This document shows positions 50,117 to 62,123 of a DNA stretch of 64,000 nucleotides, piece after piece (position 1 is the first letter of the stretch; the number at the start of each line of letters is the position of its first letter). The position numbers were made by a program, and so were the translations under genes. Origin of the DNA: Cloeon dipterum (lineage: Eukaryota > Arthropoda > Insecta > Ephemeroptera > Baetidae); contig NC_088790.1 in NCBI RefSeq assembly GCF_949628265.1, forward strand, positions 21,642,545 to 21,706,544. Direction: 5' to 3'. Below the pieces are notes generated by a model. It had not been told where the DNA came from. It made no database searches and was given only the letters and a program-made list of their open reading frames with translations.

Positions 50117-53432
<3,316 letters not shown>

Positions 53433-54841: not shown

Positions 54842-55981
54842 ATGAAGGAGATGGTCGGCGGTTGCTGCGTATGTTCCGACGAGCGCGGCTGGGCGGAGAA
54901 CCCACTCGTATATTGCGACGGCCAGGGCTGCAACGTCGCCGTCCACCAGGGTGAGTCACCCCTGCAGAGTGCCTCCGAGGCACGAGTGGCCCCCCGCAGC
55001 ACCTGCTTTTTGCGCCAGATGAATTTAATAACCGGTTGCTGCGGTGACCGTTTGCCCGTTTTTGGGTTATTCTGCGCTGATTTGAGTGCAGAAGTCGCGT
55101 CTGTCGAGCCCACTGTCACCTGTCCGAGTTAAAATCACCCCGCATTCTGTCATTAGTTCCAAAATTATTGAAACCTTTGGAGACGTTAATTTCGGTTTTC
55201 CCTCAAATACCGGTTCCGTTGAACGAAATACCGGTTATTTTCTGACAAAAATTGTTTTTTTAACAAAAAATTAACATTCATTTCAGCATGCTATGGCATC
55301 GTGACTGTCCCGACCGGACCATGGTACTGCAGAAAATGCGAATCTCAAGAGAGAGCTGCCCGAGTGGTAAATTTTGTTTGAAATTTCTGGCTAGTTGCCA
55401 TTAAAATGCTCTTCCTGTGCTTGACAGCGCTGTGAATTGTGCCCCAGCAAAGAGGGTGCCCTGAAGAGAACGGACAACAACGGCTGGGCGCACGTCATTT
55501 GCGCGCTTTACATACCAGAAGTGCGCTTCGGAAATGTCACAACTATGGAGCCTATAGTGCTCCACCACATTCCTTCAGAGAGATATAGCAAAGTAAGTTG
55601 CAAACAGAGCCAAATTGTAATACATACATAAATTTAGGGGTTTAAATGCATCATAAGAAGCATGAAATATTTATAGAAAATTATTTTTGAACTAAGTTAA
55701 GTGTCGTCATTTCGACAAATTAACCCAGATAATAATTTAAGTATGAAATATTTAGGTTTATAAACCAAATAATTCTCTTTCAGACATGCTACATTTGTGA
55801 GGAACTGAACAAGGGCAGCAGAGCCTCAATTGGTGCGTGCATGCAGTGCAACAAAGCTGGCTGCAAGCAGCAGTTCCACGTGACCTGCGCCCAGGCAATG
55901 GGGCTTTTGTGTGAAGAAGCTGGAAACTATCAAGACAATGTCAAATACTGCGGCTACTGCCAGCACCATTATGGAAAACTG
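54842..55981 (+). CDS. Alh: AF10 exons 1-4: PZP (PHD - zinc knuckle - extended PHD) module
   Basis: Exon 1 encodes the start of PHD1 (MKEMVGGCCVCSDERGWAEN, then VYCDGQGC). Exon 2 completes it (ACYGIVTVPTGPWYCRKC). Exon 3 carries the C2HC knuckle (RCELCP, NNGWAHVICALYIPEV). Exon 4 carries the second PHD (TCYICEE, GACMQCNKAGCKQQFHVTCA, YCGYC). Cys and His spacing follows the family closely. The introns are 336, 61, 191 and 477 nt. The module spans residues 1-184, and in AF10 it is the histone H3-binding part. This is the most conserved section of the gene and anchors the identification. Confidence 0.95.
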
Positions 55982-58900
55982 GTAACTTTATAATAAATAT
56001 TAAATATTTATCCTTAACTAACGTAAAGGGCTGTGAAATATAAAATATTTTTTATATTTTTTTCTGGGCTACCAATCATTGAAGAATGGTCAAATCTGCA
56101 CAATTAATGCAAAATTTGTTCGTTTGAGTTGTAGTTTAAATCATCATTAACTCATAACCGATTGCATTGTCTAACAGCGTTTAAAGACAGAAGTATAAAA
56201 CCTTTTAAACCTGTGGCTAAACCTTTGTGTGCGGCTTGGCGTTTTGCTCATAAGTGGCTTTCTTTTGGAATATAATATATTATGACTGCACACTTGGCTA
56301 CTGTTGATCAGCTATCCAATTCTGCAGATTTTTATTCATCTTTTTTCCAGATAATTTGAGATGAGAGTCACCAATTTTTGGTCAAAATCCAATGTCTAAT
56401 GATGAACTAATAATTTTTTATGTGCTATTTTCACCAGTTTTGCGTACTTCCTTTGCAGAAGAAGGGTGGAAACGTGAAAACCATCCCTGCTTACAAACCT
56501 GTGTCTTTTGAGAGCGGCAGCACCTCATCTGACGCAGCCTCTGAGAAAGACACGCCTCCCAAGGGTACCAAACGGAAGGGCAGCAAAAGCGTGACTGCAG
56601 TGCCGAAAGCAGAGCCTGAAAAGCCCGCCGCGCCTGAACCCCCTCCAGTGAGCTTTGCTGCCGCTGTGCCCACCACTTCCACTGCCGCCCCTAAATTCAC
56701 CGCGTCCAACTTCGTGGAGGTGAGTCCGGCGCCGCTGTCCGCCTCCGGAGGCAAGAAGCGCAAGAGCCGCAACTCGCCCACGCCGCCCATCGTGCCAAAA
56801 GAGGAGGAAGCCGAGGCCGAGAAGAAGATCAAGCTGGAGGAGCAGCCGCCTGAAACGCCGCCGCCCCCGGCCAAGTCGCCCAAAGTGCCACCCATCGTGC
56901 TCCAGCAGCCGTCGGTCGTTGTTGCCACGCCGCCGGCCGCCTCCTCCTTACCCCCTCAGGCCTCCCCACCGCACTCTGGAGGTGGTGGCGGTGGACTCAT
57001 CTTTTCCACTACCTCCTCGCACCCCCAACAAACACCTTCTGACACAGCTGCAAAAGACGCGGCGGCGGCAGTGATGGCGGAGACGGCCAAACTGTTTGGA
57101 CTACCTGCAGAAGCAGCTGTGTTGAAGCCCCGAGGAAGGTCAGTTCATACTTTTGATTTTTTTTCTGGAAATATTGGATGGATGTTAAAGAAAGTAAGTT
57201 TTCAATTTATTACTTGAGGTATCAGCCAGCCGCGCTAGCTGATTTATTTCTGGTTGTGTATTCAGCTGACAGCCACCGCCTAAAATTACTTTGCTGAGAC
57301 CTCCTCTTATTTGTCACTAATTCTGTTCTGCCACAATTCACCATTAGCTTTACACCAAATAGTTCATCTAAATTTGATTTTATCTCCTTAATCAGTCTCA
57401 TTACCGCAGCATTTTTAAGTAAGATCTACAGATGGTCAATTTTCTGTCCCACTAGTGCAATGTAAAGAATTTAGGGACCAGGAAACGACTTCGCGACTAA
57501 CCAATTGTTGAAATTAAACGACTGCATATAAGTTTTAGAAATGTTCCATAAGAGTAGCGTTGGCAACAGTTTGAAACCAACAAGTATCCAAAGTCGAAAA
57601 TTCCTGGATCTAGGTCCTAGAAACTATGTCTATCCTTAGTGCCATAATGGATATGATCATAAACCAACATTTTAGCAGTTTTAACATTTGAAAATTCATT
57701 CATCATTCCAAATTTCCATTTTATTTCAATTCAATGGAAACGATTCAGTTTTTTGCCTCTGAGCGACTCACAACCAAGGAAAATGTGGAGTTTCTACTAT
57801 CTTCAATTTAAACTAAATTAAATCCCACCGAAGATACGTAATTGAGGATGTTCTATGGCGTCCGAAAAGCACTGTGAGAAAAAGTATTTGGATATAATTG
57901 ATTATTCATTCCTGATTGTTGCACTTAAAGACAGAAAATTTGCCATCTTTTCAACCTTTTTGCATATAATTTGATGGTTGAAACGCTTTGTATTTTTCAG
58001 AGCAATGAGTTTGAGGTAAGGAGTGGAATTATACAATAAATCTCAAGATGTGAAATTTAGGTTTTAAAGAAATGGTTCAGCTCCTTTCGCTGAGCATAAA
58101 GTCGCTTTGATGATTTGTGCGTTTTGTTGTTGTTAAATCTTAGTTAGTTAATTTGCCCTCCAAATTTCACATCCCAAGTTATTATGTCTCTTTCATTTTC
58201 AATTTGTACTAATTTATTTATTATTTTCATTCCTCTTCGTGATCCTCTCCATAATCCAGGCCTCGGAGGTAATTTTCATTTTAATGCGAGTGTTAAGAAT
58301 TTAAAGTTCAACAATTTTCCAATTTCAATCCTGATATACACTGTATTACTTAGAAAATTGTTGTATTTCGCCAACCCTATTTTTTGTTTCATGTATTTTT
58401 CTCATATCAAACTTAATCAAAAAATTTATGAGCAACGTTGAAACCCGGAAGAGAGACTAAAATTCTCAAAGATAAGATTTTCATCTTGTACAATCGTATT
58501 TCTGGTCCTACCCAGCCCTAGTTACTAAATTTTCACTGCATTTTTATTTTGTAATTATTTCTCACAAATTTTTAAATTATTAGTTCCAAATTAGACAAGA
58601 TATTTTAAGGTTTTAGAGACAGAAAAGGATAAATGGTATGTGGGGATTTGTTGGCAGATCGCAATCAACCGAGAAAAGTGAGAAGGTAGCTAAAAAAGCG
58701 AGGCGGAAGAGTCCAGTGGCGACAGGGCGACGAGCAAAGAACTCGAGCCTAGTTTCACCCCCGCCCGAGAACCCATCCACATCTGCAGACGCGTCATCGT
58801 CGGTGCCAGCCATGAATAGTTTGCTGCAGTTCTCAAACATTGCTGCCAATGCAGCGCCAGTGCTCGTGCCCCCGCGCCTTACGGAAGACCCTTCGGTACC

Positions 58901-61900
58901 TGACCCTACCCGCAAAGCGCCGCAACTGCTGCAAAAGTCGTCTGCCAAGTCGCCAAAGGAGACTAAGGATTACAAGCTGTAAGTCCAGAAATATCCGGAA
59001 ATATCTGTTTAACAACAAGGAAGGCCTTGAAATATTATGTTGCAATAATTGTTTTATCAGCTCCTGGTTTGTTCTATTGTTTTTAAATTTCTTCAATTAT
59101 TGCGTAAGGAGATGGCGACATTTCATGCTCAGATATTTGGGCAATTGAGCTTAGAGACTGTTATTGGTGCCAGCATTGCTCGAAAGATAATAAACTTTAT
59201 TTTGGTGTTAGATTCAAATGGATTCACCAATGTATGTTTCATTTTAAAATATTCTTTCCTCGAAAATTTTATTGATTTTTTATGCGTTTGCAAGATAATT
59301 TTCAATTTTCAATTTCTGTTTCAGGTACCAAAACGGCGTGGGAAACGCTGCACCGCACATGCTGGGCAACATCCTGAACCCTAATTCGTCGATGGCGCAG
59401 AAAATGACGGACACTCTGAACGCAGAGATGGAAGCGCACAGCGTCTTCACTCCTACATCAAGCAGCAGCAGCAGTAGCTTGGTCGGGCCGCAACTGCCGT
59501 CCAAAGTGGTCGCCTCGACGCGAAACAGCATAAACAACATGCTTGGGCTTGGCTCTCCCAATGGCTCCCTGAGCAGCGGAAACGCGTTCTCGTCAGCCCT
59601 GGCAGGAGCACCTGGAGCCGCCAACAATTTGCCCCAGAGCCTGGACCAGCTGCTGGAGAGGCAGTGGGAGCAAGGTAGCCAATTCCTCATGGAGCAAGCC
59701 CAGCACTTTGACAGTAAGTATTTTTTATTTAATGTACTAACAAGTGTGCTTGTCATGAAGCCTGTCATTTTAGAGAAAAAAGAGGGGTTAGGAAGTTTTC
59801 ACTTAGATGATTATAACAATTAATGGAGCTTAAAAATTCCGGATGTGCTGTAACACAATAAAAAACTCAATTTTTTTCCATAATGACATAAATTTCAGGT
59901 TTTGAGAAGACGAATCGATTGAATGGGTTTTTAATTTTAGAGCATAAAACGCACACAATCTGGAAGCTGAATAAATTACCTATTTTTCATGCTGACCAAA
60001 ATTTTATCTTGTCATTTTTATATTTTCTAGAAAATCTAACCACCTGTTGTTGATTAAAAATTTCAAAAGGCTGTTTATTTTAACCATCAATTTTCTAAGC
60101 AGGATGTTAATTTTTCTATTTCAGTTGCATCACTGTTGACGTGCTTGCACCAACTGCGCGCTGAAAACATCAAGCTGGAGGATCACGTGTTGAATCTACA
60201 GCAAAGGAGGGACCACCTTCTGGCTGTCAATGCCAGGCTAGCCATTCCACTGCCTCCTAATCAACCAGGTGAGACACCTCTCATGCCCGAATGACAGCGT
60301 TTGTTTATTCATGCGACGGCATTTCAGTTACAGCAGCTATGCGCTCAACGCCTCCGCAACAGCGCAGCGCCATTCCGCCCTCTATGAACAACTATCCGGT
60401 GGAAAACGGTATCCCAACCGAAGCCAATATTCTGTCTTCGTTTTCTAACAGAAGTCCAGTGGCCACCTCTAGTGAGCGCAGCTTCAGTGGCCAATCTGCT
60501 CATCCCCCACCGCCTCAAATGTCAAGGTAGGAAATCACCTTTTGTAATTATTAATTTTCTTAAAGCTGTCTTGAAATTTTGAAAATCAGCTTCCATGAAT
60601 GAATGTCAAAAAACTAAATTAATTTTGCCTTTTGAGTAGGAGTGGCTACTATGAAAGGCAGAGTCCTGCTAGTGGCGTCCCGAACTCATCTCAAGGCCCG
60701 CCACCTCAGCAGCAACAATCGCAGACCTCGCCTCACTCCAATAATATCGGCACCCTAAGGATGAATCCACTCCAAATCGCTGAGCAGTTCCGCAGAGAGG
60801 AATCGCGAAGGTTGGTTATTAGAGATTTACTCGATTTGACAGGGTTGAGTAATTTTGATTCATGTCCGCAGTGGAAGAAGTCAAGGTGGAATGCCACAGA
60901 TGCAGATGTATACTCCCTATCAAGCTGTGTCTCCCCCCGTTGCTCAGTCTTCATCTCATGTACCAGTAGTGACATCTCATCAGGTAAATTATTTTGTGTT
61001 GATTGACCAAACACTAAGTACTTTAAACAAAATTTTGCAATTATTTAACTATACTGAGTACAATGCAATGACACTTTGATTTTCTGATTGTAAGAATCGT
61101 GTCTAAAATCGAAATTTTCGTTATAGATAGATTTTTAACTATTAAAAACGGAGCTTTCCTGCCCAACCCTTACAACGTCTAGAACGATAAAAATTCCAAA
61201 ATATCTAAGAAAAAAATCGTAATTCCTGACAGTGAAATTTTATGTAATGGATCTATGAACGTCTCCTGAAAATGTATTTGAATTATTTTTCTAACTGCTG
61301 CTCCTTGTATTTGAATTCTATTGAATTATTTTAAAATTACTTTTGATCATCATTTAAATTTTAATGCGTTTATATTTTTTGGATTGATTATATGCTTACG
61401 CATTAAAACGTGTAAAAATATTTCCAATTGTCAATCTGAACGCCCTTGGTGAAGTCAAGATCAAGGACAGTAGAGATTAGTGTCTGACAATATAGGTTGA
61501 GAAATTCTTTTACCCTGGCATAAATTGGCATCGGGGGCTACAACTACACAATTGTCCGATACTAATCTAATATCCTTTAGAAGGCTGGAAAAAAACCATA
61601 ATGATTTTTAAATGTGGTGCATTGGTTTTGATATCTTTATTAGTATCTCTGACATTATTTGCACAAAATATGGATACATGTTTTTATGCACCTTGACATA
61701 AGATTTGGGAATCAAAACATTGTTTAAGTTGAAGACAGGAATAGCATTTTATTAATATTAACTCATAAGTGTATTTGGATTTTTTCCCAAAATTTGTATT
61801 TTTGCTAAGAAAAAATTCACGTAAGAAATTAGTAAAAAACTAAAAATCAGTGGTGAAAAGACAATGAAACCCTAATCTTAGGTCAGTATGTGTTATTTTT

Positions 61901-62123
61901 AGAACAAAGGTATTAAAATTTACACTTATTTTTATTATTTGAAGTTGAAATAAATTAATGCTTCATAATTTTATCTAGGACAATGAGTTAAAAGGCAAGT
62001 AAATATGTTTTCTTCACGTGTTTGTAACTGTTTTTGCAGCCGATGGTGATTCGGCGGGAGGGCATGCCAATGGAGCACTCGAACCTGATGCTGCACATGC
62101 ACCACCACCAGAAGCAGAGCTGA
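54842..62123 (+). CDS. Alh: AF10/MLLT10 (Alhambra) orthologue, PHD-finger chromatin reader
   Basis: Spliced gene. Exons: 54842-54950, 55287-55366, 55428-55592, 55784-55981, 56459-57138, microexons 58001-58015 and 58260-58268, then 58658-58978, 59325-59713, 60125-60268, 60328-60526, 60640-60810, 60872-60983, 62040-62123 (TGA at 62121). All junctions are GT-AG and phases agree throughout. The product is 891 residues with both microexons and 883 with neither. Family knowledge: AF10 reads unmodified H3K27 through its PZP module and brings DOT1L to chromatin for H3K79 methylation, acting in the nucleus. Seen here: a PZP module at about residues 5-180, a conserved FTASNFVEVSP block near 264, KKRK-type basic clusters, a candidate AT-hook near 410, and the octapeptide/leucine zipper near 630-700. 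The start is the first ATG after an in-frame TAG at 54797. An extra upstream coding exon cannot be excluded, since vertebrate AF10 has a few more N-terminal residues. The other possibility is the close paralogue class AF17; insects normally have one gene. Confidence 0.93.
56459..57138 (+). CDS. Alh: AF10 exon 5: long low-complexity linker
   Basis: This 680-nt exon codes for a Pro/Ala/Ser-rich linker (about residues 185-410) with basic clusters (KGTKRKGSK, GGKKRKSRNS) and the FTASNFVEVSP block that aligns with the family's FTNANFQEV-type motif. It begins KKGGNVKTIPAYKP after an AG at 56457-56458. It ends AAG CCC CGA GGA AG at 57138, before GTCAGT, in phase 2. Reading on into the intron stays open to a TGA at 57217, so intron retention would give a truncated protein that contains PZP but lacks the zipper. 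Confidence 0.88.
58001..58015 (+). CDS. Alh: Candidate 15-nt microexon of the AF10 gene
   Basis: AGCAATGAGTTTGAG is preceded by a good acceptor (TTTGTATTTTTCAG) and followed by GTAAGG. It is a multiple of three and lies between phase-2 junctions, so inclusion adds five residues (AMSLR after the shared R codon) without a frame change. It is predicted from splice signals and phase only; no transcript evidence is available here. Confidence 0.45.
58260..58268 (+). CDS. Alh: Candidate 9-nt microexon of the AF10 gene encoding the core of an AT-hook
   Basis: GCCTCGGAG follows a pyrimidine-rich tract ending ATAATCCAG and precedes GTAATT. It is a multiple of three between phase-2 junctions. Joined directly to exon 5 and to the exon at 58658, it gives K-P-R-G-R-P-R-R-S, a canonical AT-hook centred on GRP. 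Vertebrate AF10 also carries an AT-hook in this part of the protein, which supports the exon being real despite its size. Confidence 0.5.
58658..58978 (+). CDS. Alh: AF10 exon: basic and Ser/Pro-rich linker
   Basis: The acceptor is TTGGCAG and the entry phase is 2 (AG|A TCG CAA). The exon reads SQSTEKSEKVAKKARRKSP, then VATGRRAKNSS, a Ser/Pro stretch, and ends KETKDYKL with donor CT|GTAAGT. It lies immediately after the candidate AT-hook and is probably part of the nuclear-localisation and DNA-contact region. No folded domain is visible. Confidence 0.85.
59325..60268 (+). CDS. Alh: AF10 exons encoding the octapeptide motif and leucine zipper (OM-LZ)
   Basis: Two exons, 59325-59713 and 60125-60268. 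The first holds YQNGVGNAAPHMLGNILNP, a Ser-rich run, then SLDQLLERQWEQGSQFLMEQ (the octapeptide region). The second continues IASLLTCLHQLRAENIKLED with leucines in heptad spacing and ends LAVNARLAIPLPPNQP. In AF10 this coiled coil binds DOT1L, and it is the part kept in leukaemic AF10 fusions in humans. Junction codon: GAC A|TT, giving D-I. Confidence 0.93.
60328..62123 (+). CDS. Alh: AF10 C-terminal tail exons
   Basis: Four exons: 60328-60526, 60640-60810, 60872-60983 and 62040-62123. They encode a Pro/Ser/Gln/Met-rich, probably disordered tail (TAAMRSTPPQQRSAIPP, then SGYYERQSP, then GRSQGGMPQMQMYTPYQ). The tail ends with a His-rich segment, LMLHMHHHQKQS, before TGA. The last intron is 1056 nt. 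The donor at 60811 (AAG|GTTGGT) is weak but the phase is right on both sides. Low-complexity tails of this kind are usual after the OM-LZ. Confidence 0.8.

Follow-up and report, generated by a model that had tools for sequence, protein, structure and literature searches.

A candidate 9-nucleotide microexon that may complete an AT-hook in the AF10 orthologue of the mayfly Cloeon dipterum

Intron 5 of the AF10 (MLLT10/Alhambra) orthologue of the mayfly Cloeon dipterum raises the question whether a segment of nine nucleotides decides if this protein carries an AT-hook. The locus was analysed within a stretch of 64,000 nt of C. dipterum DNA, here called the window; all coordinates are positions of this window and AF10 is read on its plus strand. 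We report that the position of the 9-nt segment, its phase, its splice dinucleotides, a branch-point-like element, an AG-free zone, the coding result and an annotated isoform that skips it are all observed. On this basis we consider it, with a probability of roughly 0.55, to be a genuine and alternatively included cassette microexon, perhaps used together with a 15-nt segment of the same intron, and we infer that its inclusion is regulated.

The identity of the gene and the structure of the junction agree with the initial annotation. Specifically, the spliced translation of 883 amino acids agrees at every residue with P0001, annotated as "protein AF-10 isoform X2" of Cloeon dipterum, three Pfam families (PF13831, PF13832 and PF13771) score above their cut-offs, and solved AF10 chains match residues 1-187 (5dag), 621-692 (6jn2) and 624-689 (6ckn). 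The protein thus has the N-terminal PHD/zinc-finger module of the AF10/MLLT10/Alhambra family as well as the C-terminal part covered by solved AF10 chains, which we take to be the OM-LZ; its target is presumably unmodified histone H3. The end of exon 5 within the codon that follows K-P-R-G, and the phase-2 resumption in exon 6, were likewise found in the sequence as annotated (Table 1). A search of the genome DNA with positions 56400-59000 returned the locus itself and seven short matches of 73-78% identity on contigs C1, C2 and C3; all seven fall on the same part of intron 5, positions 57459-57637, which is probably a dispersed repeat. Read by eye, an apparent minus-strand gene lies head to head with AF10 at 50117-53432.

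Table 1. Coordinates of the AF10 gene features and of the microexon candidates in intron 5.
Feature	Position	Strand	Remarks
AF10 (MLLT10/Alhambra) orthologue, coding span	54842..62123	+	12 coding exons; 883 aa when both microexon candidates are skipped
Exon 5	56459..57138	+	ends ...VLKPRG(AG; contributes the PRG(R) half of the putative AT-hook
Intron 5	57139..58657	+	phase 2, 1519 nt; contains both microexon candidates
15-nt candidate microexon AGCAATGAGTTTGAG	58001..58015	+	acceptor ttttcag, donor gtaagg; in frame; adds AMSLR
UACUAAU branch-point-like element	58207..58213	+	lies some 50 nt before the 9-nt candidate; CTAAY (CTAAT) at -51 from the intron end
AG-free stretch carrying UCUC motifs, with the CAG acceptor of the 9-nt segment	58214..58259	+	
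9-nt candidate microexon GCCTCGGAG	58260..58268	+	flanked by AG and GT; inclusion gives KPRGRPRRSQS
Exon 6	58658..58978	+	321 nt long and frame-preserving; reading continues with (A)TCG CAA TCA

The 9-nt segment, with AG before it and GT after it, is present as had been described, and translation across it gives VLKPRGRPRRSQSTEK, which contains the predicted PRGRPRR. Skipping it gives KPRGRSQS, the product of the annotated isoform X2, which joins 57138 to 58658. The skip product had earlier been written PRGRRS and is in fact PRGRSQS, which retains RGR together with the proline N-terminal to it. According to PMC5028900, RGRP forms the core of an AT-hook, and HMG-I has prolines on either side of RGR. 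The inclusion form has both the RGRP core and a proline on each side of RGR; since the core is RGRP, inclusion completes it in full and skipping leaves only an RGR with its N-terminal proline. Judged from this motif, inclusion would act as a switch of AT-rich DNA binding. No AT-hook family of Pfam was found at E-values up to 1, either in the whole protein or in a 28-residue piece of the inclusion form, and the skip form is likewise without one; the AT-hook profile is very short, and the HMMER filters drop most weak matches. As a coding segment of no more than 30 nt with splice sites on both sides that keeps the frame, the candidate falls within the definition of a microexon.

A second in-frame candidate, of 15 nt, had been overlooked in the initial annotation; its inclusion translates to PRGRAMSLRSQS. 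The two candidates are separated by 244 nt, which is enough for an intron. The AG-free zone of the 15-nt acceptor measures 64 nt and holds no CTAAY, nor does this acceptor have UCUC. For the 9-nt acceptor the full AG-free zone is 79 nt (the 11 AF10 introns have a median of 28 and a range of 1-102) and CTAAY lies inside it, as it does in the AG-free zones of 0 of the 11 AF10 introns; moreover, the last 60 nt before the 9-nt candidate hold three UCUC/CTCT matches.

These features resemble those of fly neuronal microexons under the eMIC (Srrm234) programme. According to PMC8797185, such exons lie between short introns and have weak splice sites; upstream they show an extended AG exclusion zone, a strong CUAAY branch point, UCUC tracts and a UGC close to the acceptor. 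The 9-nt acceptor shares with them the long AG-free zone, CUAAY and UCUC, but differs in that the last 30 nt before it hold 0 TGC and that the flanking introns cannot be called very short, with 862 nt ahead of the 15-nt candidate and 389 nt behind the 9-nt one. The main text of PMC8042270 has neither "Alh" nor "Alhambra", and that of PMC8797185 does not have "Alh". An SRRM_C domain (PF15230) was found above its cut-off in the Cloeon genome (C1:20434834-20434980). This family, we assume, covers the eMIC domain.

Splice sites were scored with two matrices, one generic for insects and entered by hand, the other trained on AF10's own 11 introns. When the 11 AF10 introns were scanned with the generic matrix for segments of 3 to 51 nt, the 15-nt candidate ranked first (17.9 bits) and the 9-nt candidate second (16.1 bits), and the third was an out-of-frame candidate of 20 nt in intron 11 (13.2 bits). 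Chance expectation was taken from 22 Cloeon stretches, each read in both orientations and together amounting to 528,000 strand-bases (window 1-54000, L010 and L011-L030), where in-frame candidates of 3-30 nt were counted. Under the generic matrix, the 9-nt candidate is equalled or beaten at both of its sites by 2 of these and in the summed score by 18, which corresponds to 0.006 and 0.05, respectively, for each intron length; under the AF10-trained matrix the counts are 35 (0.10) and 258 (0.74). For the 15-nt candidate the corresponding counts over the same strand-bases were 0 and 3 (generic) and 0 and 12 (AF10-trained). A smaller scan of 136,800 strand-bases agrees, with 0, 0 and, by sum, 3. 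Whether the sites of the 9-nt candidate stand beyond chance or are ordinary depends on the matrix, and under the AF10-trained one they are ordinary. Set against AF10's own 11 sites, its acceptor and donor come lowest with the latter matrix, on which AF10 sites score high in part because they trained it, and have ordinary strength with the generic one. The acceptor of exon 6 is the weakest of 11 under the generic matrix (2.9 bits) and not under the AF10-trained one.

Among 500 Markov-resampled copies of the intron, a candidate as good on both sites as the 9-nt candidate occurs in 7 and one as good as the 15-nt candidate in 2; 24 copies reach the sum of the 9-nt candidate, 0 of these giving GRP. 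As regards the acceptor anatomy, 159 in-frame candidates in the 528,000 strand-bases have a donor scoring at least as high as that of the 9-nt candidate, and 2 of them have an AG-free zone of at least 60 nt and 0 also have CTAAY, a combination that was chosen after the site had been seen and so supports rather than proves the case.

The reading that comes closest to the one we prefer overlaps it as its richer form: both candidates would be real, giving four states (skip, +9, +15 and +24), of which only +9 would have the AT-hook. Both segments are in frame and top-ranked, and the distance between them suffices for an intron, yet the argument is one of scores and, for the 9-nt candidate, of the choice of matrix; we therefore give this reading appreciable weight but less than an even chance. 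A more specific version, in which KPRG has become fixed in mayfly exon 5 and the three codons are under neuronal eMIC control, so that only +9 builds a lineage-specific AT-hook, is more tentative still.

That neither candidate is used, the splice-like sites having arisen by chance and intron 5 always being removed whole, we regard as unlikely. The direct joining of 57138 to 58658 in isoform X2 accords with it, as do the 0.74 pairs per intron length that match the 9-nt candidate by sum under the AF10-trained matrix and the 7 and 2 resampled introns with candidates of equal quality on both sites. It is at odds with a 15-nt candidate that is unmatched on both sites under two matrices and with a 9-nt candidate that, together with its branch-point features, is unmatched in the same 528,000 strand-bases, and also with an implied isoform X1. 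In 10 of the 10 species with several isoforms among the matches listed, a higher isoform number never goes with a longer protein (e.g. Hylaeus volcanicus X1, X2 and X3 have 1030, 989 and 973 residues); the two isoforms of Megalopta are equal in length and come from differently named annotations. With Cloeon X2 at 883 residues, this rule implies an X1 of at least 883 residues, and since X1 is not listed apart it is probably inside the 90%-identity cluster of P0001, which has three members. The length of X1 could be 886, 888 or 891 residues, or the difference could lie elsewhere; the 15-nt candidate, with its higher splice score, could equally account for a longer isoform.

The junction was compared by a pattern scan across 121 homologues, i.e. 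the best 120 of 2080 proteins (7987 candidates scored) and P0121; all named members of this set are insects, and it was clustered at 90% identity, which hides isoforms. By a loose pattern, a basic stretch is joined straight to [SATL]Q[ST] in 98 of the 121 (best 120 of 2080 plus P0121), and RxRxQS is found in 96, which makes the skip form the usual one. In 88 of this set KR[SAG]R precedes the junction motif, a place where both mayflies have KPRGR. From these sequences, the conserved feature at the junction looks like a basic RxRxxS motif; the RxRxQS version, which intron 5 splits in Cloeon, looks like a motif of the basophilic-kinase or 14-3-3 type. PRGR is found at the junction only in the two mayflies of the set (best 120 of 2080 plus P0121), P0001 and Neocloeon P0002, and the residues just upstream differ between them (EAAVLKPRGRSQS and ETPPAKPRGRSQS, respectively). 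The presence of PRGR in both despite this divergence fits, but does not prove, a kept half-hook. When the region was searched with in its inclusion form, P0001, a skip form, was the only one of 65 candidates to be returned. P0007 (Ceratina X5) and P0096 (Nilaparvata X4) lack the counterpart of exon 6, with the frame kept.

An AT-hook is commonly ascribed to AF10, and the initial annotation had treated this as a trait of the family; a canonical core is not general among the insect AF10 proteins compared here. Within the 121 homologues (best 120 of 2080 plus P0121), GRPRR is found in 0 and RGRP in 2, the beetles P0031 and P0093, at another site; Cloeon AF10 in its inclusion form would thus differ from the 119 that lack RGRP and from the two that have it off the junction. 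MGRPKK lies about 10 residues past the junction in two further members, P0077 (Carabus) and P0120. In these two the sequence reads MGRPKKRG, a basic stretch with GRP just behind SQS that makes up part of an AT-hook-like motif at nearly the same position.

Somewhat less probable than chance sites throughout is the reading that only the 15-nt segment is real and the 9-nt one a chance match, in which case AMSLR would stand between RGR and SQS without an AT-hook and would break the basic, kinase-type RxRxxS motif that skipping joins. The higher total score of the 15-nt candidate, its lack of any chance counterpart on both sites whichever matrix is used, and the RxRxQS of 96 of the 121 homologues (best 120 of 2080 plus P0121) argue for it. 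In its favour, too, two other insects carry a 15-nt insert at the corresponding junction: Chrysoperla has TIQLR (P0115), and isoform X1 of Aethina has HAIHR (P0031). These two inserts could, however, be tandem acceptors 15 nt apart, and their peptides are unlike; a search for more of them with residues 570-690 of Aethina P0031 gave, among 440 candidates, only P0031 and P0121, the latter without the insert. Other inserts at the junction, FLCSFS (Dufourea P0044), LRNYVFR (Rhamnusium P0104) and FR (Cotesia P0027), were set aside as microexons, as the peptides read like translated polypyrimidine tracts. Nor would a 15-nt microexon by itself explain why the 9-nt acceptor has its branch-point-like element and long AG-free zone. 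Recursive splicing was dropped, the intron being only 1.5 kb long and neither candidate being a zero-length AG|GT site.

Further inserts were rejected. GSVTRICEKGE in Timema P0003 was considered as a 15-nt insert and dropped, as the sequence after it does not resume SQS; judged by eye it is presumably a repeat. FRSFFHDR in Neocloeon, considered as an extra exon at the exon 6/7 junction, is likely a translated polypyrimidine tract before exon 7. Elsewhere in the protein, AF10 isoforms of bees and wasps (P0055, P0070, P0051, P0101 and P0007) differ as HFD[I]ASLL and HFD[SEF]ASLL, a splice choice of 6 nt in the part of the protein that aligns with the solved chains of the AF10 C-terminus. We assume that this region is linked to DOT1L binding.

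The proposal that an AT-hook is switched by the 9-nt segment thus stands in part: the splice anatomy, the change in the RGRP core and three eMIC features speak for it, and the commonness of the skip form, the lack of a general RGRP and the 15-nt rival speak against it. Under our preferred reading of the 9-nt segment as a cassette microexon, some transcripts would include it, most likely those of neurons and under the Srrm234/eMIC programme. Inclusion would turn the half-hook KPRGRSQS into the AT-hook PRGRP and may thereby add a contact with the AT-rich minor groove to the histone reading of AF10, and the common skip form would instead retain the conserved basic RxRxxS motif. The 15-nt microexon would provide a further state without the AT-hook.

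Splice isoforms of a Drosophila transcription protein, described by Metcalf and Wassarman in 2006, reportedly differ in their AT-hooks, with a longer exon carrying the hook; the mayfly AF10 hook is unlike this case in being divided between exon 5 and the 9 nt. In the vertebrate histone reader PHF21A, neuronal microexon splicing decides whether the AT-hook is present (PMC11605454). The likeness is that a microexon would decide the AT-hook of a histone reader; the differences are that the neuronal isoform of PHF21A lacks the AT-hook, whereas inclusion in mayfly AF10 would complete it, and that the mayfly case concerns another gene and is a candidate known from sequence. PHF21A and TAF1 are precedents for AT-hook switching by splicing. 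A narrow look at the literature on microexons with AT-hooks and on microexons of Cloeon dipterum found no report of a microexon in AF10.

If the preferred reading is true, a microexon that decides the AT-hook of a histone reader arose in a mayfly in another gene than PHF21A and in the opposite sense. This would be a convenient case for asking whether chromatin readers are repeatedly tuned by neuronal microexons, and a reminder that coding exons of 9 nt are easily overlooked. Should the two-microexon switch hold as well, a reader of unmodified histone H3 would gain affinity for AT-rich DNA cell type by cell type, as the mirror image of PHF21A.
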